Shown here: piece after piece, positions 1,674 to 44,945 of the stretch
How positions within the stretch are numbered: the stretch's first letter is position 1
How the letters are laid out: the number at the start of each line of letters is the position of its first letter
The notes under the pieces: generated by a model
The model's input: only the letters and a program-made list of their open reading frames with translations
What the model was told of the DNA's origin: nothing
Databases searched by the model: none
Source of the DNA: a virus
IMG/VR virus record: IMGVR_UViG_3300025308_000007
Coordinates: 1 to 45,229 of that record
Direction: 5' to 3' (one strand)
DNA: 45,229 nucleotides
Made by a program: the position numbers and the translations under genes

Positions 1674-2771
1674 TCAGATCCGGCCCTGGCGCGTCAGCCG
1701 CTGGCGCACGTCCTGCACCCGGCTGCGCACCATGCCGCGCGTCAGCAGGCCCTGGTCGAAGTAGCCGGCCTTCGTCGGGCCCAGCACGCCGGCGCGCAGC
1801 TCGGGCGCCAAGCGCTCCAGCGCCTGGTTCGTGGTCTCCTGGCCAGCGCGGTGCTCGTCGGTCAGCTCTTCCTCGAACACCGCCACCACAAAGCTCAGCG
1901 TGTTCGGGTGGGCCGGCCACGGCGTGCGCTTGCGGTCGGGGTAGACGCCCGGGCCCAGCCCGTGCAGGTTCTGGCTGGCCAGCAGGTCGCAGATGTCGGG
2001 CCGGGGGTGCCGGGGGCTCAGCAGGAACCGAAAGCCCATCACGCCCGGCGCACGGCCGGCGCCGTCCATGTAAGCCTCGCCATGCGCGCGGTTGATCTCC
2101 GTGCGCATCACCCGCAGCGTGCTGGCCAGCGGTCCCGTGTTCGGGTCGACCAGGTGGTCAGCGCCGCGCAGCACGTTGGCCACCGCCGAAGCCTGCTGCG
2201 CCTGCGCCGTGGCGTCGGGCACGGCCTGGCCGCGCAGCATGAAGTCCTGCGCCGCCTTGTCCGCGCTCCATCCCTGCACCACCGCCTGCTCCACCGTGCG
2301 CTGCACCGCCTCGCGGGCGCCCCGGTCCACGCGCCACAGCCGGTCGCTCAGCACCAGGCCATCGGCCGCGCGAAAGGCCCGCACGAACTGCACCGCGTCG
2401 TCGACCACCCGCAGCGCCTGCGCACCATCCAGCACCGCCTGCACCTCGCGCCCGGTGGCGGCCAGGCCGGCAGCCGTCAACGGGCGCACACCCAGCCCGG
2501 CCGCCTGGGCGATCGCCGCATCCAGCAGCTCGGTGCGCGCGCTGGCCAGCACCTCCAGCACGGCATCGATGCGCGCCAGCAGCGCGCGCAGCTGGTCGAC
2601 CCGCACCTGCGACGCCCCGTCGCCCGCGGCCGCGATCGCCCCGCGCACCTGCTCAGCCGCCTCGGTGTAGATCCGGGTCAGCTCCGCCTCGGTCGCAGCA
2701 TCCAGCTGCTGCATCGCATTGCGTGCCTGCTGGCTGGCGCGGCGGATCGCCGGGCCTGCGCGGTCGGCCAT
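1674..2771 (-). CDS. Phage head morphogenesis protein (Mu gpF / SPP1 gp7-like)
   Basis: 365 aa. It probably assists capsid assembly or DNA ejection in association with the portal. The N-terminal two thirds is helical. The C-terminal part has the diagnostic head-morphogenesis motif: RTEINRAHGEAYM, then PRHPRPDICD, then YPDRKRTPWPAHPNTLSFV, the usual D-x-C-D ... Y-P ... P-W-H-P-N pattern. The start MADRAGPAIRR at 2771 is chosen because it overlaps the portal stop as TGATG; the frame is open further upstream but that part is the portal gene in another frame. It is the last gene of the packaging/head operon and is followed by hairpins. Confidence 0.88.
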   Translation of the reverse strand: MADRAGPAIRRASQQARNAMQQLDAATEAELTRIYTEAAEQVRGAIAAAGDGASQVRVDQLRALLARIDAVLEVLASARTELLDAAIAQAAGLGVRPLTAAGLAATGREVQAVLDGAQALRVVDDAVQFVRAFRAADGLVLSDRLWRVDRGAREAVQRTVEQAVVQGWSADKAAQDFMLRGQAVPDATAQAQQASAVANVLRGADHLVDPNTGPLASTLRVMRTEINRAHGEAYMDGAGRAPGVMGFRFLLSPRHPRPDICDLLASQNLHGLGPGVYPDRKRTPWPAHPNTLSFVVAVFEEELTDEHRAGQETTNQALERLAPELRAGVLGPTKAGYFDQGLLTRGMVRSRVQDVRQRLTRQGRI

Positions 2772-4180
2772 CAGCCGCCCCTGCCGCGGCCGCCGTTGCT
2801 GCCCGGCACGCTGATCGAGGTGGCGCTGCCGCCCTTGGGCGCATTGCCCGGCGTCACGCTCACCCGCGGCGCCGGCAGGCCGGCCCCACCGCCACCTGCT
2901 GCCGGCGGCCCGATCGGGTACGGGTCGCTGCGCTGGCCCCAGGCCTCCACGGCCTTCAGGATCTGCGCCGGGTCGTAGCCCATCTCCGTCCACACCACCG
3001 GCGGCGGGAAGCCCAGCGCGCTCAGCTTCAGCGCCAGGTCAGCCACCTGGTTGGGCGTCTCCGTGCGCCGCTCGCTGAAGCGCAGCGAGAACTCCTCCGG
3101 CCCTGCCACGATGCCCTGCAGCAGCAGGTGGATCCGGAAGCACCACTCGTACTCGAACGCCAGGCTGTCCTGCAGGTGGTCGATCTCGTCGTAGTAGTCG
3201 CGCTTCAGGTCCTCCAGCACATCACGCGCCAGCCCGTCCACGTAGCCGAACAGCCCCTTCGGCGCCGGCGTGCCGGCAAAGAAGCTGTCCAGCAGGTGCA
3301 CCACGTCGGCTATCTCGCCCAGGTTCGCATCACCCTGCACCGCCGTCACGGCCCCCTTGCGGTTGGCATAGAAGTCGGTCGTGATCTCCCCCTTCTCGCC
3401 CTCCACCGTCTTGCGGTAGGCATCCAGCTCGTCTGGAGTTGCCCCCTCCAGCACATGGCTCAGCCGCACCGGTGCGCGCTGGCGTCGACGGATCACCAGA
3501 TCCTCCTCCGTCATCACCAGCTTGCGCCAGGTCTCGCACACCGCGTCCAGAAAGGGCCGGCCCATCTCGCCCATGTCGTCGAAGCTCAGCGGGTCGAAGC
3601 GCGCCATCTGCAGCTGCCAGGCCGCAAAGGTGGCAATCACCTGCCCCGTCAGCACATCGCGCTGCTCATAGGCCCGCGCCGGGTCGGCAAAGCGGCCGGT
3701 GGCGTCGACCAGCGGCACGATCGTCTCGGCCGGCATGCGCACTGCGGCCACCACCCGGTTGCGATCGTCCAGCACCAGCTGCAGCGGCAGGTTGCCCTCG
3801 GCCACCAGGCCGCGTGCATCGCTGCGCAGCTTCTGCACCCGGTTCAGCTGCAGCCGCTGCTTGAACGCCAGCCACTCGCGGCGCAGCGTTTCGCTGCTCG
3901 CCGTGTCGGTGAACTGCATCACCAGGCCGCCGCGCACCACGTCGCGACAGATCCGCCCGTGGATCGACTTCACCCGCCCGTCGCGCGCCTCCATCTGCCG
4001 CAGGATCAGGATCTTGTCGCGCACCTCGGTGCTCACCGCGAACTGCCGGTACCAGCGCGCCAGCGCCACGTCGGCCGGCGTGCGCGATCCGCTCTCCCCC
4101 GCCGGACGCTGGTACAGCGGCGCCAGTGCGGCCCGCATCAGATCGCCGCTCGCCGCGGCCAGGCTCTTCAGGTAGCCCAT
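2771..4180 (-). CDS. Portal protein
   Basis: 469 aa; the expected dodecameric DNA channel at the capsid vertex. Support is its position directly after the large terminase, a typical portal length, and family-like segments such as EVRDKILILRQMEARDGRV near residue 55 and a helical DVLEDLKRDYYDEIDHLQDS segment late in the protein. The C-terminus is Gly/Pro/Ser-rich and probably disordered. ATG 4180 (MGYLKSLAAA) is preferred because GAGGAGG lies 5 nt upstream; the GTG at 4186 would sit too close to it. The stop overlaps the next gene (TGATG). Confidence 0.85.
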   Translation of the reverse strand: MGYLKSLAAASGDLMRAALAPLYQRPAGESGSRTPADVALARWYRQFAVSTEVRDKILILRQMEARDGRVKSIHGRICRDVVRGGLVMQFTDTASSETLRREWLAFKQRLQLNRVQKLRSDARGLVAEGNLPLQLVLDDRNRVVAAVRMPAETIVPLVDATGRFADPARAYEQRDVLTGQVIATFAAWQLQMARFDPLSFDDMGEMGRPFLDAVCETWRKLVMTEEDLVIRRRQRAPVRLSHVLEGATPDELDAYRKTVEGEKGEITTDFYANRKGAVTAVQGDANLGEIADVVHLLDSFFAGTPAPKGLFGYVDGLARDVLEDLKRDYYDEIDHLQDSLAFEYEWCFRIHLLLQGIVAGPEEFSLRFSERRTETPNQVADLALKLSALGFPPPVVWTEMGYDPAQILKAVEAWGQRSDPYPIGPPAAGGGGAGLPAPRVSVTPGNAPKGGSATSISVPGSNGGRGRGG

Positions 4181-13651: not shown

Positions 13652-13890
13652 GGTTGGCCTCCAAGCGGTGCGGTCTACAACAACCGACGCCATGGCTGCA
13701 AAACGATGGCGGCGGCTCGACGGGTTTGCAGACCGGGCACCGCTTGCGCGAACCGGCAGGGCTTGCGCCCTCCCGCCGAGCCGCCATAAAGGGGGCGCGA
13801 ACGAAAAAGCCGCAGTACCTGTGCGGTGGCTGCGGCTCTCGCTGCAGCGGTGCTTCGGGCTGCAAAACCCGATCCCTGATGAGCAGGGAT
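13652..13890 (-). ncRNA. C4/CI-like antisense immunity RNA leader, copy 1
   Basis: Read on the minus strand, this 240-nt leader contains in order: hairpin TCCCTG-ctcat-CAGGGA (13889-13873); sense motif GGGTTTTGCAG (13870-13860); an intrinsic terminator (13836-13804); antisense b AAGCGGTGCCCGGTCT (13745-13730); antisense a CTGCAAACCC (13731-13722); target a' TTTTGCAG (13703-13696); target b' AGACCGCACCGCTT (13676-13663); then GGAGG and ATG 13651. Segment b pairs with b' over 14 bp with a 2-nt bulge, and a pairs with both a' and the upstream sense motif. This is the plan of P1/P7 C4 and P4 CI RNA, where a processed leader fragment blocks translation or causes early termination. It shares its plan with 43451-43681 but has different a/b sequences. 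Confidence 0.75.
13804..13836 (-). terminator. Intrinsic terminator inside leader 1
   Basis: On the minus strand GCCGCAG (13836-13830) pairs with CTGCGGC (13815-13809), with further pairing inside the loop, followed by TTTTT (13808-13804). It lies about 55-85 nt after the predicted transcript start, ahead of the antisense segments. Full-length transcription must therefore pass it, which fits an attenuation mechanism. Confidence 0.75.
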
Positions 13891-13944: not shown

Positions 13945-14517
13945 TCACGCCCCATCGCCCATGCCCGGCAGGGGCTTCTGCTGCAGGATGGGCGCCAGCC
14001 CTTCAGCGGCAGCCGTGTCCATGCCCAGCGCCTCGTCGATGCGCTTGAGGCTCTGCCACATGGCGCGGGCGATGCTGGGGTGCTTCGCATCGCCCAGCTG
14101 GGCCAGCACGCGGTTGCGCTCCTTGATCCACGCCAGCTTGCCGGTGTCAGCACTACCGGCCGAACTGGCGCTGTCGGTGGTCCAGTGTCGGTAAAGCGCC
14201 TCCTCGCACTCTTCCTGGTAGCGCATCATCTTGTCGCGCAGCTCGGGCTTCACCTTGTTCGGTTGCAGCGTGTAAAGCCAGGCCGGGAGCTTGCGCAGGG
14301 GAAGGCAGACCATGGAGCGCAGCTTTCCATCCTCTGCAACCGTCACGATTTCCGTGACGGTTGACCCGAATTTCTCCATCAACTTGATGTGCTGCGGCTG
14401 CCAGGACAGGCCTAAATTGGCCACCACGGTACGCATAACGACATAGGGTTGCCCCTCAAAGTCGGCCAACACCACGGTGTCACCGTGGAACTCAACAGGT
14501 AGTAACTGGGTTCTCAT
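13945..14517 (-). CDS. P22_AR_N-type antirepressor-like protein
   Basis: 190 aa from ATG 14517. The N-terminal 100 residues match the phage antirepressor N-terminal domain: MRTQLLPVEFHGDTVVLADF, then PYVVMRTVVANLGLSWQPQH, and CLPLRKLPAWLYTLQPNKV before a helical YQEECEEALYRHW. The C-terminal domain (about 110-190) is helical and variable, as is usual. Family members include P22 and P1 antirepressors, which inactivate repressors. It lies immediately upstream of leader 1: its stop is 18 bases from the leader's -35, so it may be cotranscribed into the leader or controlled together with it. Confidence 0.82.
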   Translation of the reverse strand: MRTQLLPVEFHGDTVVLADFEGQPYVVMRTVVANLGLSWQPQHIKLMEKFGSTVTEIVTVAEDGKLRSMVCLPLRKLPAWLYTLQPNKVKPELRDKMMRYQEECEEALYRHWTTDSASSAGSADTGKLAWIKERNRVLAQLGDAKHPSIARAMWQSLKRIDEALGMDTAAAEGLAPILQQKPLPGMGDGA

Positions 14518-23706: not shown

Positions 23707-26700
23707 TCAGCAGCTCGGGCAGATGTACACGCCACCGGTGTCGGCATACGTCACGGTGTAGGTCACCGCGTTGTCGGCAATGTCGGTGGTGGCCGCCTGG
23801 CCGGTGATGTTCACGCCGAACTGCGCGCCCACGGTGGCGTTGTCGGCGGGCTTGCCGGTGCCGCTCACGCTGGCCCAGGTGGCCCGGGTGCCGGCAACCT
23901 CGGCAAATTTGTTCAGCAGCGCCTGGCGCGTGGTGTACACGTCGGCAAACTTGGTGCGGAAGGTGCTGCCGGTGATCGCGGTGTCGGTACCGGTGTCGTT
24001 CCAGGCCGGCGACAGCCCGCTCAGGTAGGAGCTAAGGGCCGCCACCGCGTTGTCGTAGGCCGTCTTCTCGGTGGTGATGGTGTAGGCCGTGGCCTGCGCG
24101 TCGATACCCGATTGATCGCCCGATATGGCGGCCCAGTCCAGGATCACCTGCCCCTTCTCGCCCTTGCTCAGCACGTTGTCCGAGCTGATGTTGCCGATGG
24201 CGGCATTGGCGGTGTCCGCGTCGGCCTGGGCATCGGCCGCAGCGCTGGCGGCAAGGCCGGCGAACACACCTGCGGCGGTGGCGTCGGTCTGGGCGTTGTC
24301 GGCCAGGGTCTTGGCGATGCCTGCGATGGCATCGAGCACCGCTTGCCGGTACAGGTACACGTCCGAGAACTTGGTGCGGAAGGTGGTGCCCGTGATCGGG
24401 GTGTCCTGCGTCGCGTCGTTCCACGGCGGGGTCAGCGATGTCAGGTACGCGCCCAGCGCCCCCTTGGCGGCGATGTAGTTCGTCAACTCCGAGCCCACCC
24501 CGTAGGCGATGGCCTGGTCAGTGATGAAGGAGTACTCGTTGTCGATGGCGGTCCAGTCGAGGATCACCGCCCCCTTCTCGCCCTTGGCCAGCACGTTGTC
24601 GCTCACGATGTTGGCGATGGCCGCGTTGGCAGTGTCGGCGTCGGTCTGGGCATCGCCGGCGGCCGCGATGGCCGCGTCTGCAGCGGTCTTGGCGTCGACC
24701 ACCTCGGTCACTTCTTCAAAGCTGAAGTCCTGCACCTCCCAGTAGCCGGCCGCAAGCGAGTAGTTGTCCAGGAAGTCGGGTCGCACAAACTGCACACCCG
24801 CCTGCCAGTCGGCAGCCTCCCAGATGTAGCTGTACTCGCCCCACTGGTCGGTGCCGCCGAACTGAGTGTTGTGGGCGTCCCGGCTTTGCCCGCTAGGCTT
24901 GTACGGGCTGCGCCCGCCGTTGACAGGGCCCGTGGTGCCGGCGTTGTCGGTGAACTGCTGCAGGCTGAAGTACAGGATGCCAACCGTCGTCGCCGATGGC
25001 CGTGCCCAGAAGCGAACGCGGTATTTCTTGGTGCGGTCGATGGCGGTGTAGTTGCCCTGGTTCGGGTAGCCGCCGGCAGACAAGCGCAGCGCGGCGCTGC
25101 CCACCTTGCCGTCGCCCAGGGCAACGATCGTCTGCCCGTTCAGGTTCCACGACTCGAACGGCAGGCCCAGCGATTTGCCCACGGTCGCGTAGCTTGCGGG
25201 CTTGCCCGCGCCGGTCACCGCCGACCACACGTTCACGTTGGCAGCGGGTATGCCGGCCACCGTGCCCGTCACGTCACCCGCAAAGGCCACGCTCGACGCG
25301 GGTTGGTACGGGTCTTCCGCCGTCAGCGACGGCTTCACCCAGGCGCTGAACAGCAGGCCCGCCGCGTCGATGTCGGGGTCCACCACGCGGTAGGCCCGCA
25401 CCGCAAAGGTGATGTGCTGCGTCGGGTCGAGCCCCAGCGCGACGAAGGCGCGCTTGTTCGCCGGCATCGCCAGCACCGTCTCCTGCGCCGGGCTGGCGCC
25501 CACCGTGTAGGCCCCACCGGTGGCCGACACCCGCACCAGCACCTGAAAGCCGTCGATGTCGGGCTCCGACCCCGCCCACGCCCACTCGAACGACACGTCG
25601 GCGCTGGCGTTCACGTTGATGGTGTGGTCCACCGCGCTGCCGTCGGTGGCGATGGTGGGCGCCGGCACCGCGGTGGCAATGCGGTCGTTGCGGCCGTTGA
25701 AGTTGACCAGCGCGGCCTCGCCCAGCGCCAGTACGTTGGTCACCACGAAGGTGGTGCGCCAGTCGCTCACCGCGCCCAGGCCATTGCGCAGCCGCGCCCG
25801 GATGAAGTACAGCCGATTGTTCTGCGGCCCCTGCAGGTCGCAGCGGGTGGCCAGCGCATTGATCTCGGGCACGCGCGCCCACTCGGTCGACTCGGCCGGC
25901 CGGTATTCCACCTGCACCGCGCCGTTGCTGATCACCAGCGTATCGGTCACGGCCGTCCACGACACGCGCACCCGGCTCAGCACCGTGCCGTCGCTGTCGC
26001 GCTGCGCAATCGCATCACTGCTCACCGCCGCCAGCCCGGCCACCGGCGCCACCACCCACGGGTCTTGCGCCGCGGCGGTGGGCGATGCCAGCGGCGCCGG
26101 CGCATCCGCCTCGTCGTAGTAGCTGGCGTCGTCCTGCTCCATCGACAGCATCACCGCACCACCGGGCTTGAATTCCTTCTTCACCAGGCGGAACACCGCC
26201 GCATCCAGGTTCAGCCACGGCACCGTCAGCGTCACGCGCTGGCCCACCTTCAGCCGCACCGCGCGCAGCTTGGCAGGGAACACCAGCTGCTGCCCGCGCG
26301 AGCGCTCCACCTGGATGCGCGCTAGGTTCGTGGCCCGCCAGTCGGCCGCGGTGAAGGGCATGTTCAGGCTGCCCCACATGGCAACGCCGCCGTCTGCGCT
26401 CACGAAGGCGGTGTTCTGGTAGGGCGTGTAGTCGGTCAGCTGGTCGAAGCGATCGGGGTCGAAGTACTTGCCACGCAGGCCGTTGAACACCTCCAGCCCC
26501 GCCGCGCCGGCCAGCAGCTCGATGCTGCCCGCGTTGTCGGCCACCGTCAGCGCCATCACCGGCGCGGTGTAGGCCCCGGCCTGCAGGCGCCAGGCGCCGG
26601 CATCGGTGGCAAAGCCGGCCATGCTCTGGCACAGCGCGTCCAGCGTCTGGTCGGTGTCGGCGTCGGTCAGCACGGCGCCGTCGCAGCGGTAGCGCGCGGC

Positions 26701-27747
26701 ACCGCCGTGGCTGGCCAGCGCTTCGTCGCACACGTTGGCCGCGGCATCCACCGTGGCCCAGTCGATGGCGTTGCTGGGCTGCTGCTTGCCGTACTCGCCC
26801 ATCAGAAAGTCGGCCACGCACAGCGCCGGGTTGGCGCTCCAGGTGGTGGCCAGCGTGCGGTGGTCGTACAGCTTCTTGCCGCGCAGGCGCACCTTCAGCG
26901 CCGGCGGCCCGCTCTGGAACTCGGGCTCGTCGAGGTTGAAGCGGAAGATGCTGTAGCACTTGCCGGTCAGCACGTCGGTGCTGCTCCAGTCGCCGGGGCA
27001 GTCGGTGATCAGCTGCGCATCAGCCACCGGCCCGGCGCCGCCCAGGTAGTGGCGCACCCGCACCATGGGCTGCGTGGCGTTGTCGCTGAAGTTGGCCTGC
27101 ACCGTGCGGCCAGCCCACGCGGCCACGTGGCCGGCCGTGAGCGTGATGGTGTTGCCCGCCACCGTCCAGTCCCCGGCCACCAGCACATCGTTTGTGATGT
27201 AGTCGCCGACGTACTGCTCGAAGCTCAGCGTCAACAGGCTAGCGCCAGGGCGCCCAAGATCCACGTAGCCGGCGCCATCCAGCGTCACCGTGGTGGTGGT
27301 GGTGCCCGTCAGCGTCTTCAGCCACTTGCCGCTGGTCACGTCGCCATTGCTGTCCAGCGTGCCCAGAGCCACCCCGGCCAGGTAAGTCTCGGTGATGGCA
27401 TCGCACTCGTGGTCGACCCACACCACCACCAGGTGCTTGTACTGGTCGCGGTCGCCGCTGGTCAGCATCGCCACCACGCGCCCGCCCACGGTCGGCTCGC
27501 CGTAGCAGATCTGCCAGGGCGCGTTGGGGTCGGTGAAGGTAACGGTGCGGTCGGTCAGCCCGGCGTTGTAGGCATCACGCGCCTGGTTGCGCGATCGGCG
27601 CGCGCCCTCGCGGGCGTTCACGGTGCCGTACACCGCAAACGTGGTCGTGATCACCTGCGCCCAGGTCAGGCTGGCCACGGCCGTGCTGCCCAGCCAGGCG
27701 CCCACGGCCTGGGCACCAGCGTACAGGGCGGCCAATGCATCGGGCAT
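23707..27747 (-). CDS. Tail tip / host-specificity protein (gpJ-like)
   Basis: 1346 aa. The central attachment protein at the tail tip, which contacts the host. The N-terminal part (WAQVITTTFAVYGTVNAREG, then DPNAPWQICYGEPTVGGRVV) matches J/TipJ-type tip proteins. The middle has fibronectin-III-like segments (RVRVSWTAVTDTLVISNGAV). A carbohydrate-binding-like jelly roll lies near residues 880-1020. The C-terminus contains two tandem repeats of about 110 residues (each with NVLxKGEKGxVILDW and a FRTKFxDVY block). The C-terminal module is likely the receptor-specific part and the most variable. ATG 27747. Confidence 0.85.
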   Translation of the reverse strand: MPDALAALYAGAQAVGAWLGSTAVASLTWAQVITTTFAVYGTVNAREGARRSRNQARDAYNAGLTDRTVTFTDPNAPWQICYGEPTVGGRVVAMLTSGDRDQYKHLVVVWVDHECDAITETYLAGVALGTLDSNGDVTSGKWLKTLTGTTTTTVTLDGAGYVDLGRPGASLLTLSFEQYVGDYITNDVLVAGDWTVAGNTITLTAGHVAAWAGRTVQANFSDNATQPMVRVRHYLGGAGPVADAQLITDCPGDWSSTDVLTGKCYSIFRFNLDEPEFQSGPPALKVRLRGKKLYDHRTLATTWSANPALCVADFLMGEYGKQQPSNAIDWATVDAAANVCDEALASHGGAARYRCDGAVLTDADTDQTLDALCQSMAGFATDAGAWRLQAGAYTAPVMALTVADNAGSIELLAGAAGLEVFNGLRGKYFDPDRFDQLTDYTPYQNTAFVSADGGVAMWGSLNMPFTAADWRATNLARIQVERSRGQQLVFPAKLRAVRLKVGQRVTLTVPWLNLDAAVFRLVKKEFKPGGAVMLSMEQDDASYYDEADAPAPLASPTAAAQDPWVVAPVAGLAAVSSDAIAQRDSDGTVLSRVRVSWTAVTDTLVISNGAVQVEYRPAESTEWARVPEINALATRCDLQGPQNNRLYFIRARLRNGLGAVSDWRTTFVVTNVLALGEAALVNFNGRNDRIATAVPAPTIATDGSAVDHTINVNASADVSFEWAWAGSEPDIDGFQVLVRVSATGGAYTVGASPAQETVLAMPANKRAFVALGLDPTQHITFAVRAYRVVDPDIDAAGLLFSAWVKPSLTAEDPYQPASSVAFAGDVTGTVAGIPAANVNVWSAVTGAGKPASYATVGKSLGLPFESWNLNGQTIVALGDGKVGSAALRLSAGGYPNQGNYTAIDRTKKYRVRFWARPSATTVGILYFSLQQFTDNAGTTGPVNGGRSPYKPSGQSRDAHNTQFGGTDQWGEYSYIWEAADWQAGVQFVRPDFLDNYSLAAGYWEVQDFSFEEVTEVVDAKTAADAAIAAAGDAQTDADTANAAIANIVSDNVLAKGEKGAVILDWTAIDNEYSFITDQAIAYGVGSELTNYIAAKGALGAYLTSLTPPWNDATQDTPITGTTFRTKFSDVYLYRQAVLDAIAGIAKTLADNAQTDATAAGVFAGLAASAAADAQADADTANAAIGNISSDNVLSKGEKGQVILDWAAISGDQSGIDAQATAYTITTEKTAYDNAVAALSSYLSGLSPAWNDTGTDTAITGSTFRTKFADVYTTRQALLNKFAEVAGTRATWASVSGTGKPADNATVGAQFGVNITGQAATTDIADNAVTYTVTYADTGGVYICPSC

Positions 27748-41445: not shown

Positions 41446-43071
41446 TCACGCGGCCAATCGCCTCATTGATCGTCCTTTGAACGGGTGTGCGAGAAGCACT
41501 CGGCCGGTTCGCAGCAAGCCCACCACGGGGAGCCAATTCTTGGTGCTATGAACCATGGCACCTTGCTCGCGTATGAGGCACTCAGGGTGGTAATCCACCC
41601 GGAGCTCTGCCAGGTCGACCACGATCTCCTTTACGATCGAAGCGACGAAGGCCCGAAGCGCCTTCGGGCTCTCGCAGTCGGCCACCATCTTCCGCATCAC
41701 CGCCACGGCTTCATCGGCTGACACGCTGATCTGGCCCACGATCGGCTCGGGCTCATCCTCGATCTGCACCAGGGCCAGCTCGAGCCGCCGCACCTGGTCG
41801 TTCAGCTCGCGCAGGCGTGGGCCCATCTCGCTGATTCCGGGTGTGTCCTTGCCATGCGTCTCCAGCGCGTCGTACAGCTTGGCACGCCGCCCCTCCACGC
41901 CGCGCAGCTCCAGCACCAGCGCCGATCTGCGCCTGGCGCGATCCTTCACCCAGTCGGCGGCCGCGGTGTCCAGCTGGGCGATCACGCCTCGCAGGTTCTC
42001 GGGCGTGAACACGTGCCGCATCAGCTCGTCCATCATCCAGCGGTCGAAGGCCTCGGCCGGCAGGCGCTTGAACGTGCACTTCTTGCCCTGCAGGTCGCCC
42101 CGGCAGGCGTAGTAGCTGTAGACCTTGCCGGCGCGCCCGGTGCCGGTGGCGATCACCAGCGACGATCCGCACAGCGCGCAGCGCATCAGCCCGGCAAAGG
42201 CGTGCTCGCTGTTGGCAGGAGCGCGGCCCTCGGTGGGCATGCGCTCGGCCAGGCCGCGCTGCACCTGGTCAAACTGCTCAGGCGTCACCAGCTCGTCGTG
42301 GCCCTTCACTCGCACCCACTCGCCCTTCGGCCGCCGGCGCTCGCGCTTGCGGTCGAACCGGTTGAAGATCACCTCGCCCATGTACACCTCGCTCTTCAGG
42401 ATGTGAAGGATCGCGCCCTTGGTCCAGGGCTTGCCGCGCAGGGTCAGCCCCTGCCCGTTCAGATTCGTCGCGATCGCGTAGGCGCCCACCTGGCGCGCGC
42501 TGGCCGCGAACATTGATTGCACCACCGGAGACTCTTCGGGATGCGGCTGCAGCCGCTTGTGCCGGCCATCGGCCGCGGGCACGGTCTGGTAGCCGAACGG
42601 TACCCGCCCGCCCATGAAATAGCCCTCTGAGGCCGCCGAGATCATCGACCGCCTTGTGTCCTTCGACACTTGCCGAGAATAGGCCTCGTCGAAGATCTGC
42701 TGCACGCTGTCGGTAAGCCAGCCCTCGTCGGTCCACAGATCGATGCCCTGGCTGGCGTACACCAGGCGCGTGCCCACCCCGCGCAGCGACTCCTTGTGGA
42801 CGATGGCATCGCGCTGGTTGCGGGCAAACCGGCTCGAGCTCCACACCACCAGGTAGTCGGGCTCGGCAACCCGGCAATGCTCGATCGCAGCCCGAAAGCC
42901 GGGCCGCGCATCGGTGGTGCCGGAGATCCCGTCGTCCCTGTAGACGCCCAGCACCGCCGCATCCAGTTCGAGCACCTTGCGCCTGCAGGATTCGATCTGG
43001 CTGTCCACCGACTGCCCTTCCTCCGCCTGGTTGTCGCTGCTCACGCGTGCGTAGATCACCGCCCGCTTCAT
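41446..43071 (-). CDS. Large serine recombinase
   Basis: 541 aa from ATG 43071 (MKRAVIYARVSSDNQ); an ATG at 43083 adds four residues. The N-terminal resolvase domain (1-150) has the nucleophile region YARVSS (S11/S12), RDDGISGTTDARPGF and VWSSSRFARNQRD. A recombinase domain follows (VPFGYQTVPAADGRHKRLQP, then IATNLNGQGLTLRGKPWTKG). A zinc ribbon is CALCGSSLVI ... CRGDLQGKKC, and a C-terminal coiled coil contains LRELNDQVRRLELALVQIED. Such enzymes integrate phages or invert segments. With the tyrosine integrase also present, it may be a second integration system, an inversion enzyme for the neighbouring fibre gene, or an acquired element. Confidence 0.9.
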   Translation of the reverse strand: MKRAVIYARVSSDNQAEEGQSVDSQIESCRRKVLELDAAVLGVYRDDGISGTTDARPGFRAAIEHCRVAEPDYLVVWSSSRFARNQRDAIVHKESLRGVGTRLVYASQGIDLWTDEGWLTDSVQQIFDEAYSRQVSKDTRRSMISAASEGYFMGGRVPFGYQTVPAADGRHKRLQPHPEESPVVQSMFAASARQVGAYAIATNLNGQGLTLRGKPWTKGAILHILKSEVYMGEVIFNRFDRKRERRRPKGEWVRVKGHDELVTPEQFDQVQRGLAERMPTEGRAPANSEHAFAGLMRCALCGSSLVIATGTGRAGKVYSYYACRGDLQGKKCTFKRLPAEAFDRWMMDELMRHVFTPENLRGVIAQLDTAAADWVKDRARRRSALVLELRGVEGRRAKLYDALETHGKDTPGISEMGPRLRELNDQVRRLELALVQIEDEPEPIVGQISVSADEAVAVMRKMVADCESPKALRAFVASIVKEIVVDLAELRVDYHPECLIREQGAMVHSTKNWLPVVGLLRTGRVLLAHPFKGRSMRRLAA

Positions 43072-43159
43072 GCGCACCACCATAGCGCCGGCGCGGCGCC
43101 GTCTCCAATGACGGCCGGGCCGCTGGTCATCCATGCCGGGCGGCCCGGCCGTTGGTGGG

Positions 43160-43450
43160 TCAGCTGTTCGCCGCGTCGGTGCCCAGGGCGGCCAGCACCG
43201 GAAAGCCCAGTTTCATCGCCGTCTGCACCAGGCCGTCGTTCGCGCACTGCAGCCGGCCGTGCAGGCCCTCCAGCAGCACGCTGAAGCCCTGCAGGTCGTA
43301 GTCGACCCGCGCCACGCTCATGAGAAGCGTGGTGGCCCGCATGCTGCCGATCACGTCGAGCATCAGTTGCTCGAAATCGGTTTCCATCACCACCTGATCC
43401 TCGGTGGTATCCAGGTCGGGGTGTATCGGGGGTGGGGGATTGGTTGCCAT
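43160..43450 (-). CDS. Small helical protein controlled by structured leader 2
   Basis: 96 aa from ATG 43450 with GAGG 5 nt upstream. Proline-rich start (MATNPPPPIHPDLDT), then helical FEQLMLDVIGSMRATTLLMS and RLQCANDGLVQTAMKLGFPV. Function unknown; size and position match the product at 13373-13651 after leader 1, though direct similarity is weak. It is the first gene after the second C4/CI-like leader, whose b' segment overlaps its Shine-Dalgarno sequence, so it is the likely direct target of that RNA. The serine recombinase starts 88 bases further on. Confidence 0.68.
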   Translation of the reverse strand: MATNPPPPIHPDLDTTEDQVVMETDFEQLMLDVIGSMRATTLLMSVARVDYDLQGFSVLLEGLHGRLQCANDGLVQTAMKLGFPVLAALGTDAANS

Positions 43451-43681
43451 GTTGGCCTCGCAGGTGCAGTTGAACAACTGCCACCCACGACGCCAATCGG
43501 GGCGGCAGCCCAAGATGGGTTGGCGTACCGGGCACCCGCGAACGGAACCGGCGAGCCTTGCGGCTCCCCACCCGGGCTGCCATTGAAATGGGCCGGGCGC
43601 GAAAAAGCCGCAATCCTGTCGGTGCGGCTATGCGCCGCGAGTGCAACGGGACGCCAATCCCGATCCCTGATGAGCAGGGAC
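43451..43681 (-). ncRNA. C4/CI-like antisense immunity RNA leader, copy 2
   Basis: On the minus strand: hairpin TCCCTG-ctcat-CAGGGA (43680-43664); sense motif GGGATTGGCGT (43661-43651); terminator (43629-43602); antisense b TTCGCGGGTGC (43542-43532); antisense a GTACGCCAACCC (43528-43517); target a' GATTGGCGTC (43498-43489); target b' GCACCTGCGAG (43467-43457), which overlaps the GAGG ribosome site; then ATG 43450. Segment b pairs with b' over 11 bp including two G-U pairs. The order of parts and the 22-nt block around the first hairpin match leader 1, while a and b differ entirely, so the two RNAs should not cross-regulate. The architecture is that of P1/P7 C4 and P4 CI. Confidence 0.75.
43602..43629 (-). 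terminator. Intrinsic terminator inside leader 2
   Basis: On the minus strand AGCCGCA pairs with TGCGGCT (stem arms 43629-43623 and 43612-43606), followed by a T-run (43606-43602). It has the same place relative to the first hairpin as the terminator in leader 1. Confidence 0.72.
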
Positions 43682-43687
43682 ACCCGC

Positions 43688-43717
43688 AGTGTAGGTGATT
43701 GAAAAGCGCAGTGGCAA
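43688..43717 (-). promoter_or_regulatory. Sigma70-type promoter of leader 2
   Basis: TTGCCA (43717-43712) and TACACT (43693-43688) with an 18-base spacer. Predicted start near 43681, directly at the first hairpin. It overlaps a possible rightward promoter (TTGAAA 43699-43704, CATGAT 43722-43727) for the plus-strand gene at 43749, so the two may compete. Confidence 0.7.
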
Positions 43718-43748
43718 GCGGCATGATCTGGCGTAGAAGGGGTCGAAA

Positions 43749-44261
43749 TTGAAACGTTCACTTGCCGTCGTGTTGGCTATCTTCTTGCTGCCTGAATTCC
43801 TGTCCGCGAAGACGGCCCAGGAGACGATCAACGACACGCCTTGCTTGTTTGAGTACCGGTATTGGCATCTTGATCAACGGCAATCTCCGGTGTTCGTGCC
43901 ACCACCTCAGTTCACTGCGGAACAGTGCGAGAACGCCAAGCTGGTGAACGAATCCATCGGGGCCTTGCAAGCGCAAGAGAACGCCGACGCGCAGCGCCGC
44001 AATGACGTGGCCAATGCCCGGGCCAGAGCGGCAGCAGCCAAGCGTGCGCAGGCCGCCAAGGTGGCGCGAGATGAGTTTCAGTCCCGGCCAGGTGTGCGTA
44101 TCGGAATGACGGCCGACGACGTCGTCAACCGCACAAACTGGGGCGCTCCACAAAGCCGAAACCGCACCATCACGGCCGGCGGGACGCGCGAACAGTGGGT
44201 GTACGGACCTGGCCAGTACCTGTACTTTGAGAATGGCCGGCTCACCGCCATTCAAGACTGA
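43749..44261 (+). CDS. Secreted BamE/SmpA-like protein (probable moron)
   Basis: 170 aa on the plus strand from a TTG start at 43749, chosen because GAAGGGG lies about 6 nt upstream and the product then begins with a signal peptide (MKRSLAVVLAIFLLPEFLSA). A coiled, Ala/Arg-rich middle (residues about 80-110) is followed by a C-terminal SmpA/BamE-like domain: PGVRIGMTADDVVNRTNWGA, then REQWVYGPGQYLYFENGRL. Periplasmic. Opposite orientation to its neighbours and its own promoter suggest expression in the lysogen, as for lysogenic-conversion genes. Confidence 0.75.
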   Translation: MKRSLAVVLAIFLLPEFLSAKTAQETINDTPCLFEYRYWHLDQRQSPVFVPPPQFTAEQCENAKLVNESIGALQAQENADAQRRNDVANARARAAAAKRAQAAKVARDEFQSRPGVRIGMTADDVVNRTNWGAPQSRNRTITAGGTREQWVYGPGQYLYFENGRLTAIQD

Positions 44262-44278
44262 CGCCCGCGTAATTCCGC

Positions 44279-44794
44279 TCACCCCTCACGTCTCGTCCGT
44301 CCCGCCGCCGCCAGCCGCTTGATGTGCCGGTGGCTCAGCGATTCGCCCAGGTCGGCCTTGACCATCTGGTGAATCTCGCTGGGCCGGATGCCCGACTGCA
44401 CCAGCGTAGCGATGTAGCGGTTGCGCTGGTACCGCTCGAATGCGCGGAAGGGCCGCAGGCGCAGCTCGATCTGCCCGTCGTCATTGCGCAGCGCCGGATC
44501 CGCCGACAGCAGCCGCCACATGGCCACGAACTGGTCGTAGCCCAGCAGTTGCGCCACCGACAGCCACGTGGCCGACAGGCCGATTTCGGCGAGTTCGCGC
44601 AGGCGAAGGTCCTGGCGAACTCCTGACGGAGTGCATCCGTTCAGGTACCCACCTCCCCCCCCGGGGGCGGCCGATCGACGGCGCCGACCCCCCACCCGGG
44701 GGGGTGATGGTGGGGGTGCAGGGGGCCGCGGGTGCTCAGGCCACAGGTCCAGGGTGAGGGCTGCAGCCATCTCACTGCGCACTTCAGTGGCCAT
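44279..44794 (-). CDS. Putative Mor-like DNA-binding protein
   Basis: 171 aa from ATG 44794. The N-terminal 55 residues are a Pro/Gly/Arg-rich linker encoded by long C and G runs (44648-44745). The rest (LRELAEIGLSATWLSVAQLL, then AFERYQRNRYIATLVQSGIR, and SEIHQMVKADLGESLSHRHI) resembles Mor/C-type phage transcription activators and related helix-turn-helix proteins. If correct, it could activate late genes. Assignment is by pattern and is tentative. Confidence 0.55.
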   Translation of the reverse strand: MATEVRSEMAAALTLDLWPEHPRPPAPPPSPPRVGGRRRRSAAPGGGGGYLNGCTPSGVRQDLRLRELAEIGLSATWLSVAQLLGYDQFVAMWRLLSADPALRNDDGQIELRLRPFRAFERYQRNRYIATLVQSGIRPSEIHQMVKADLGESLSHRHIKRLAAAGRTRREG

Positions 44795-44945
44795 GGGCTG
44801 ATGCCTCCCCAGGTGAGCCAGGCCGCATCACTGCGCTTTCCAACGGCATGCGCAGTGGGGTAGCCCCGCCCTGTTTGTGTTGCTCAAACGAGTTAGCCCG
44901 GGTTGTAACAGAGTTGCAGGCCCGTCCGGAATCGTCTCGCGCCAT
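44784..44945 (-). CDS. Possible small protein following int
   Basis: 53 aa from ATG 44945 (MARDDSGRACNSVTT), with AAGGA about 7 nt upstream. Polar, no motif. It overlaps the start of the Mor-like gene by 11 bases and lies 95 bases after the integrase stop. Excisionases are often small proteins beside int, but this one does not show the expected winged-helix pattern. Confidence 0.35.
   Translation of the reverse strand: MARDDSGRACNSVTTRANSFEQHKQGGATPLRMPLESAVMRPGSPGEASAHGH

Follow-up and report, generated by a model that had tools for sequence, protein, structure and literature searches.

Does a phage that carries one C4-type antisense RNA switch hold, near the end of its record, a second switch with a pairing code of its own, and what would that switch control? 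The window, by which we mean the whole stretch of DNA that was analyzed, is a virus record from IMG/VR with a length of 45,229 bases. Its first 127 bases are identical to its last 127, and the genome is therefore most likely circular, with 45,102 unique bases. None of the annotated isolates is close (the sole near match covers 5% at 71%), and neither leader had a match when isolated phages were searched directly at the DNA level. A preliminary description of the locus had proposed a second C4/CI-type antisense RNA (copy 2) that confers an independent immunity specificity.

Organization of the copy 2 leader

Copy 2 is a complete C4 leader on the minus strand (43448–43717, ATG at 43450; Table 1). 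The parts recognized in the preliminary description were all present in the expected place and order on this strand. The promoter spacer indeed comprises 18 nt between TTGCCA and TACACT, the 22-nt hairpin block at 43659–43680 is identical to that of copy 1 at 13868–13889, and the b' site does overlap the ribosome site (b2', 43457–43467, lies over the Shine-Dalgarno GAGG at 43456–43459). Apart from the two copies, TCCCTGCTCATCAGGGATCGGG does not recur in the window, even when 3 mismatches are allowed (0 expected). One part had been omitted, namely b1', between the sense motif and the terminator; with b1' present, the leader is complete by the P1 standard (a1', b1', C4, a2', b2'). A GG start is present at 43581. 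The terminator at 43602–43629 was not listed by a simple terminator scan.

Table 1. Positions of the two C4 leaders and of the neighboring genes in the window.
Feature	Position	Strand	Remark
Copy 2 promoter, −35 TTGCCA	43712–43717	minus	
Copy 2 promoter, −10 TACACT	43688–43693	minus	18-nt spacer to −35
Operator-like motif CACTGCGCTTTTC	43701–43713	minus	over −35 and spacer of the copy 2 promoter; putative function
5' hairpin block, 22 nt, TCCCTGCTCATCAGGGATCGGG	43659–43680	minus	part of c4-a1b1 (RF03163, 43643–43694)
a1' target site (sense motif) TTGGCGT	43651–43657	minus	loop of stem-loop 43647–43662
b1' target site GCACTCGCGG	43635–43644	minus	10 pairs with b, G-U included
Intrinsic terminator	43602–43629	minus	seen in the fold and the isrK alignment
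C4 antisense RNA, copy 2	43498–43587	minus	RF01695; expected mature part 43501–43581
b loop TTCGCGGGTGC, copy 2	43532–43542	minus	precedes a
a core ACGCCAA, copy 2	43520–43526	minus	7-nt unpaired joint of the C4 fold
a2' target site TTGGCGT	43490–43496	minus	7 nt complementary to a
b2' target site GCACCTGCGAG	43457–43467	minus	11 contiguous pairs with b, 2 of them G-U
96-aa ORF, putatively C4-controlled	43160–43450	minus	small, predicted helical family
Serine integrase (Resolvase + Recombinase + Zn ribbon)	41446–43071	minus	ORF as listed starts at 43134
Divergent ORF, 170 aa	43749–44261	plus	C-terminal phrog_11546 match (unknown function)
171-aa ORF	44279–44794	minus	homologues lie immediately ahead of the serine integrase in five relatives
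Three CACTGCGC sites before the 171-aa ORF	44773–44780; 44829–44836; 44850–44857	plus; plus; minus	
Cassette: copy 2, 96-aa ORF, divergent ORF	43152–44300		absent in L238
C4 RNA, copy 1	13705–13791	minus	
a core CTGCAAA, copy 1	13725–13731	minus	
b CAAGCGGTGC, copy 1	13737–13746	minus	
a1' and b1', copy 1	13860–13866; 13846–13853	minus	
a2' and b2', copy 1	13696–13702; 13662–13671	minus	
ORF under copy 1, 92 aa	13373–13651	minus	weakly DUF1484-like
P22_AR_N antirepressor	13945–14517	minus	directly upstream of the copy 1 promoter

Family assignment and predicted fold

Copy 2 matched the Rfam C4 family (RF01695, cut-off 45 bits) over its full length (1–87) with 62.4 bits (E = 7.8e-10 for the whole window), and copy 1 matched it with 61.0 bits. 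The hairpin block and sense motif of copy 2 correspond to c4-a1b1 (RF03163) over the full length (45.8 bits, slightly below the cut-off of 46.7; E = 2.1e-10), and a local search aligned 43601–43681 with isrK (RF01394) at 42.3 bits, below the cut-off of 50 (E = 8.6e-8). At copy 1, a permissive local search gave 44.5 bits for c4-a1b1 and 37.6 bits for isrK, against the same cut-offs. A close leader (L003) exceeds the c4-a1b1 cut-off with 52.1 bits. At both copies, the c4-a1b1 and isrK matches stand directly upstream of C4. As a control, the c4 region of P1 yielded C4, c4-a1b1, and a sub-cut-off isrK match (35.1 bits) in the same order as in the window; the P1 record annotates a1, b1, C4, a2, and b2, together with translational repression of icd-ant. 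The Rfam C4 match and the three matches shared with P1 bear out the assignment to the C4/CI type. The short leader of copy 2 may work like the isrK leader, yet we do not call it a member of that family.

The minimum-energy fold of the C4 body, with an outer stem and two inner hairpins, matches the structure of the family (z = −2.6 for copy 2 and −4.4 for copy 1). The three-stem fold of copy 2 presents b within a loop and a within a joint. Copy 2 is confirmed as a nearly textbook C4 leader, a known kind of phage RNA switch.

Pairing specificity of the two copies

The a and b segments had been described as different between the copies, and they are: the a core reads ACGCCAA in copy 2 and CTGCAAA in copy 1, and b also differs. 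The copy 1 a core is flanked by TTTGCAG on both sides, and the copy 1 b pairs over 10 positions with GCACCGCTTG. Within the window, cognate pairing covers 7 nt for the a core and 10–11 nt for b. Crossed pairing covers 6 nt for the copy 2 a on the copy 1 leader, 4 nt for the copy 1 a on the copy 2 leader, and 6 nt for b; the 6-nt match of the copy 2 a core, TGGCGT, lies at 13687–13692 inside the copy 1 leader. RNAduplex energies of the a segment alone did not cleanly separate cognate from crossed pairs and were a poor test, because the C-rich end pairs with many G-rich places. The contiguous complementarity of the 7-nt a core was adopted instead.

A comparison of leaders from viral records revealed matched changes of a, a1', and a2' across 53 viral leaders with distinct a and b. 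The leaders were collected by three routes (leader pattern, terminase relatives, and C4 pattern). Because two of these relied on patterns that preset part of the sense motif or a GCCAA-type a, the sample is non-random and biased towards common a types. The a core matched the downstream part of its own leader over at least 7 nt in 49 of 53 cases and the upstream part in 51 of 52; in leaders carrying a different a, the rates were 3.6% and 3.2%, respectively. For b, matches of at least 8 nt with G-U allowed occurred downstream in 41 of 53 leaders (vs 5%) and upstream in 31 of 52 (vs 11.5%). One viral pattern match, L004, was discarded as a chance occurrence inside another sequence. An independent pairing specificity of copy 2 is well supported by these sequence comparisons; of the proposed independent immunity specificity, it is the separate pairing code, and not the immunity, that survives.

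A divergent C4 leader not called by Rfam was observed at 3950–4400 of L144 (record G042), before a DUF1484-like ORF. Its a segment is CTTCCCGG, and CCGGGAAG occurs both upstream and downstream.

Frequency of two C4 RNAs in one record

Two C4s were present in 3 of 24 leader-pattern records. Among 50 terminase relatives, eight held one C4 and none held two, and a third set contained two C4s above the cut-off in 4 of 48 positive records, with one more record showing a weak second. Two C4s thus occur in roughly one in ten C4-bearing viral records, many of which are fragments, and the two-copy arrangement is uncommon, not unique. Pseudomonas genomes picked as leader carriers held 1 to 41 C4s each.

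Among the eight dual-C4 records, the window included, a differs in six and b in all eight. The idea that selection makes the a segments of dual C4s diverge was not supported: random C4 pairs from different records differ in a in 78% and in b in 98% of cases. Selection is not required to explain two different codes within a single phage. In one dual record (L390, record G135, 107 kb), one of the two C4s has an unusual third stem, ACCGT...ACGGT, not GCCGG...CCGGT.

The copy 2 cassette

Alignment with L238 (= record L160) identified 43152–44300 as extra sequence in the window, its flanks being about 22 bp apart in L238. In five relatives (L130, L160, L133, L138, and L144), the 171-aa ORF and the serine integrase are adjacent, separated by 17 to 119 bases; the gap measures 1,207 bases in the window and 1,598 in G053. 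Within the G053 gap lie a C4 leader and an ORF that shares 38% identity with the 96-aa ORF; the window and G053, a sixth relative, thus carry an orthologous cassette at one genomic place. The a core in G053 is CTTCTCA, with TGAGAAG on both sides, vs ACGCCAA in the window. All of a, a1', and a2' have changed, and their joint change indicates that pairing has been maintained.

The 96-aa ORF had no match in Pfam, PHROG, NCBIfam, or PADLOC, and a single-sequence search of viral contigs and phages returned no relatives; those in G053, G047, and G048 surfaced only by their position beside C4 leaders. A structure predicted from the one sequence is all-helical, at low confidence (pLDDT 71, pTM 0.32). 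The ORF is fast-evolving and probably helical. No known lysis-lysogeny gene lies under copy 2; the ORF is followed by the serine integrase, and the P1-type icd-ant order, with an antirepressor behind the small ORF, was not found here.

Between the 96-aa ORF and the integrase, 43104–43152 contains a perfect 13-bp inverted repeat (ACGGCCGGGCCGC/GCGGCCCGGCCGT) with no U tract. It is perhaps a terminator or a recombination site, and the hairpin might end the transcript ahead of the integrase. In place of the divergent 170-aa ORF, G053 has a different gene. Besides the serine integrase, the window encodes a second, tyrosine-recombinase-like protein, whose gene spans the record ends (about 45041 onward) and whose L238 homologue lies at 2144–3160. 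Direct repeats of 119 and 71 nt, with 420-nt spacing and 82% and 79% identity, were noted at 23915–24663, inside the long ORF 23707–27747.

The copy 1 cassette

A Lar-like gene comes within about 90–120 bases after the primase in both L130 and L160. In the window, copy 1, the 92-aa ORF, and the P22_AR_N antirepressor separate these two genes; copy 1, too, sits in a cassette missing from close relatives. Because close relatives lack both C4 cassettes, neither can be the core lysogeny switch of the phage group. The copy 1 and copy 2 ORFs are unrelated and belong to different small families.

The antirepressor stands upstream of the copy 1 promoter, not downstream of C4, which is the reverse of the P1 order, and antirepressor relatives carried no C4. 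Other phages can have an antirepressor as the first gene under C4 (P22_AR_N in L123, Rha in L120, Bro-N in L125), an arrangement closer to P1. Homologues of the copy 1 ORF were also seen upstream of the terminase (L161, 9197–9379; L160, 8455–8634). No C4 was called near them, so this ORF family seems to occur without the switch as well.

A candidate common operator

The motif over the copy 2 promoter has five matches with at most one mismatch in the window, vs 0.41 expected. The form CACTGCGC[CT]TTTC (also written CACTGCGCYTTTC), a candidate operator, occupies the −35 and spacer of both window C4 promoters and the equivalent position in the C4 promoters of G053, G039, G047, and G048, standing 126–141 bases before C4 in these six promoters. 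It had no occurrence in the other 31 leaders of the first set. The 8-mer CACTGCGC alone is not enriched, either in the window (9 vs 10.6 expected) or in the terminase relatives (101 vs 121 expected). The same-strand pair of CACTGCGC sites before the 171-aa ORF, 56–57 bp apart, is kept in five relative records (L131, L133, L145, L160, and L161), two of which, L131 and L160, are near-identical there. The cluster at 44773–44857 resembles an operator cluster. What points to an operator is the longer motif, its position at C4 promoters, and the conserved 56–57 bp pair. Since both promoters bear the motif, one repressor may control both. The C1 operator of P1 (Oc4) overlaps a c4 promoter, and the operator-like motif of the window lies at the equivalent place.

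Proposed mechanism and alternatives

Copy 2 is, in our judgment, very probably a P1-type C4 antisense leader that would hold a small accessory ORF off. Published work on relatives suggests a three-RNA model, with a short leader as decoy, C4 as repressor, and a read-through mRNA as target. In Burkholderia cenocepacia, isrK and C4 are transcribed as a single unit (PMC4603805); the short IsrK activates translation of the longer, read-through transcript from its own locus, where it is followed by the processed RNA STnc1160 (PMC4825925). The C4-like RNAs of Acinetobacter baumannii are expressed and processed at a GG motif (PMC5320573), and the account of P1 C4 given there describes RNase P processing and binding at the ribosome site. 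The trans-acting c4 RNA represses Ant synthesis (PMC8546580).

On this model, one promoter would produce the leader transcript. Most transcripts would probably end at the intrinsic terminator and yield a short isrK-like RNA bearing a1' and b1'. Read-through transcripts would contain C4, which would be cut out (by RNase P in P1) and would fold into three stems that expose b within a loop and a within a joint. This RNA would then pair in trans with a2' and b2' of the read-through mRNA and mask the site where ribosomes bind ahead of the 96-aa ORF. The pairing would stop translation of the ORF and would probably lower transcription further downstream, perhaps that of the serine integrase as well. 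Since it has the same target sites, the short leader could titrate C4 and so promote expression, like the short IsrK in Gifsy-1. Copy 1 would be the same machine with another a and b and another ORF, and the two copies should therefore not strongly cross-regulate.

Copy 2 could act mainly by leader transcription termination, like the P4 CI RNA, rather than by ribosome blocking; C4 paired with a1'/b1' or a2'/b2' would then bring about premature termination. The placement of the terminator at 43602–43629 between the upstream target and C4 follows the P4 seqA-CI-seqC layout, which PMC4825925 compares with IsrK, but b2', with 11 pairs over the Shine-Dalgarno, is consistent with blocked translation. 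Both effects could operate together, and we regard a predominance of termination as rather doubtful.

Superinfection immunity, the role originally proposed, would have a prophage C4 silence the matching leader of an incoming phage, the two copies providing two specificities. The C4 RNAs of P1 and P7 are immunity determinants, a trans-acting RNA could in principle act on an incoming copy of its own leader, and a divergence of 4 nt in C4 and its targets reportedly limits cross-reaction (Citron & Schuster 1990, cited in PMC5320573). Behind copy 2, however, the gene to be silenced is a small helical accessory ORF, with no antirepressor or replication gene; moreover, close relatives lack both cassettes, so silencing of a leader need not block their infection. 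Given this absence, an immunity system is less likely than accessory-gene control, and we consider it unlikely.

A more far-reaching reading joins the switch to the integrase. The inserted cassette would put the integrase under the copy 2 leader, C4 would keep integrase low in the lysogen, and relief would permit excision; one repressor would govern both circuits, and the different a and b would keep the switches separate. We hold this combination as tentative and, taken as a whole, quite improbable.

Alternatively, copy 2 could have decayed, or could be carried passively in a mobile cassette, and regulate nothing at present. The absence of the cassette in relatives and the variable sites of C4 cassettes would agree with this reading, but it is very hard to reconcile with four matching target sites, an intact promoter and terminator, and the maintained pairing of the orthologous G053 leader.

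Relation to known systems and implications

The copy 2 leader resembles that of the c4-icd-ant operon (immI) of P1 and P7, which shares the order a1', b1', C4, a2', b2', small ORF and the C4, c4-a1b1, and isrK matches. Unlike P1 and P7, the window has the serine integrase, not an antirepressor, behind the small ORF, and it has two leaders with different a and b. The Gifsy-1 IsrK-STnc1160-orf45-anrP locus of a Salmonella prophage likewise combines a terminated short leader, read-through, and a small ORF; there, read-through yields a processed RNA, and the short RNA has sequence complementary to part of the read-through (PMC4825925). This likeness is drawn from the publication; the isrK match of copy 2 is 42.3 vs 50 bits, and the downstream genes differ. 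In the satellite phage P4, the CI RNA (seqA-CI-seqC) is an antisense RNA cut from a leader between two target copies, but it acts by premature termination, whereas copy 2 fits the P1-type C4 model with its target over the ribosome site. Bacterial chromosomes provide further parallels in the isrK-C4 unit of Burkholderia cenocepacia J2315 (ncS23/ncS24; PMC4603805) and the C4-like sRNAs of Acinetobacter baumannii (PMC5320573), with C4 directly behind an isrK-type terminated leader and several C4s of different a within a genome. Unlike these, the window has its two copies in one 45-kb phage.

These comparisons suggest that C4 leaders are portable switches, in which the promoter, decoy, antisense RNA, and matching targets move with an ORF as a cassette. 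A new pairing code may arise by changing a, a1', and a2' together, as the G053 ortholog shows at one fixed genomic place. Code changes of this kind supply naturally occurring pairs, defined by sequence, with which to determine the number of mismatches that keeps two C4 switches insulated within a cell. Should the integrase be transcribed from the copy 2 leader, the switch would constitute an RNA gate on phage excision.
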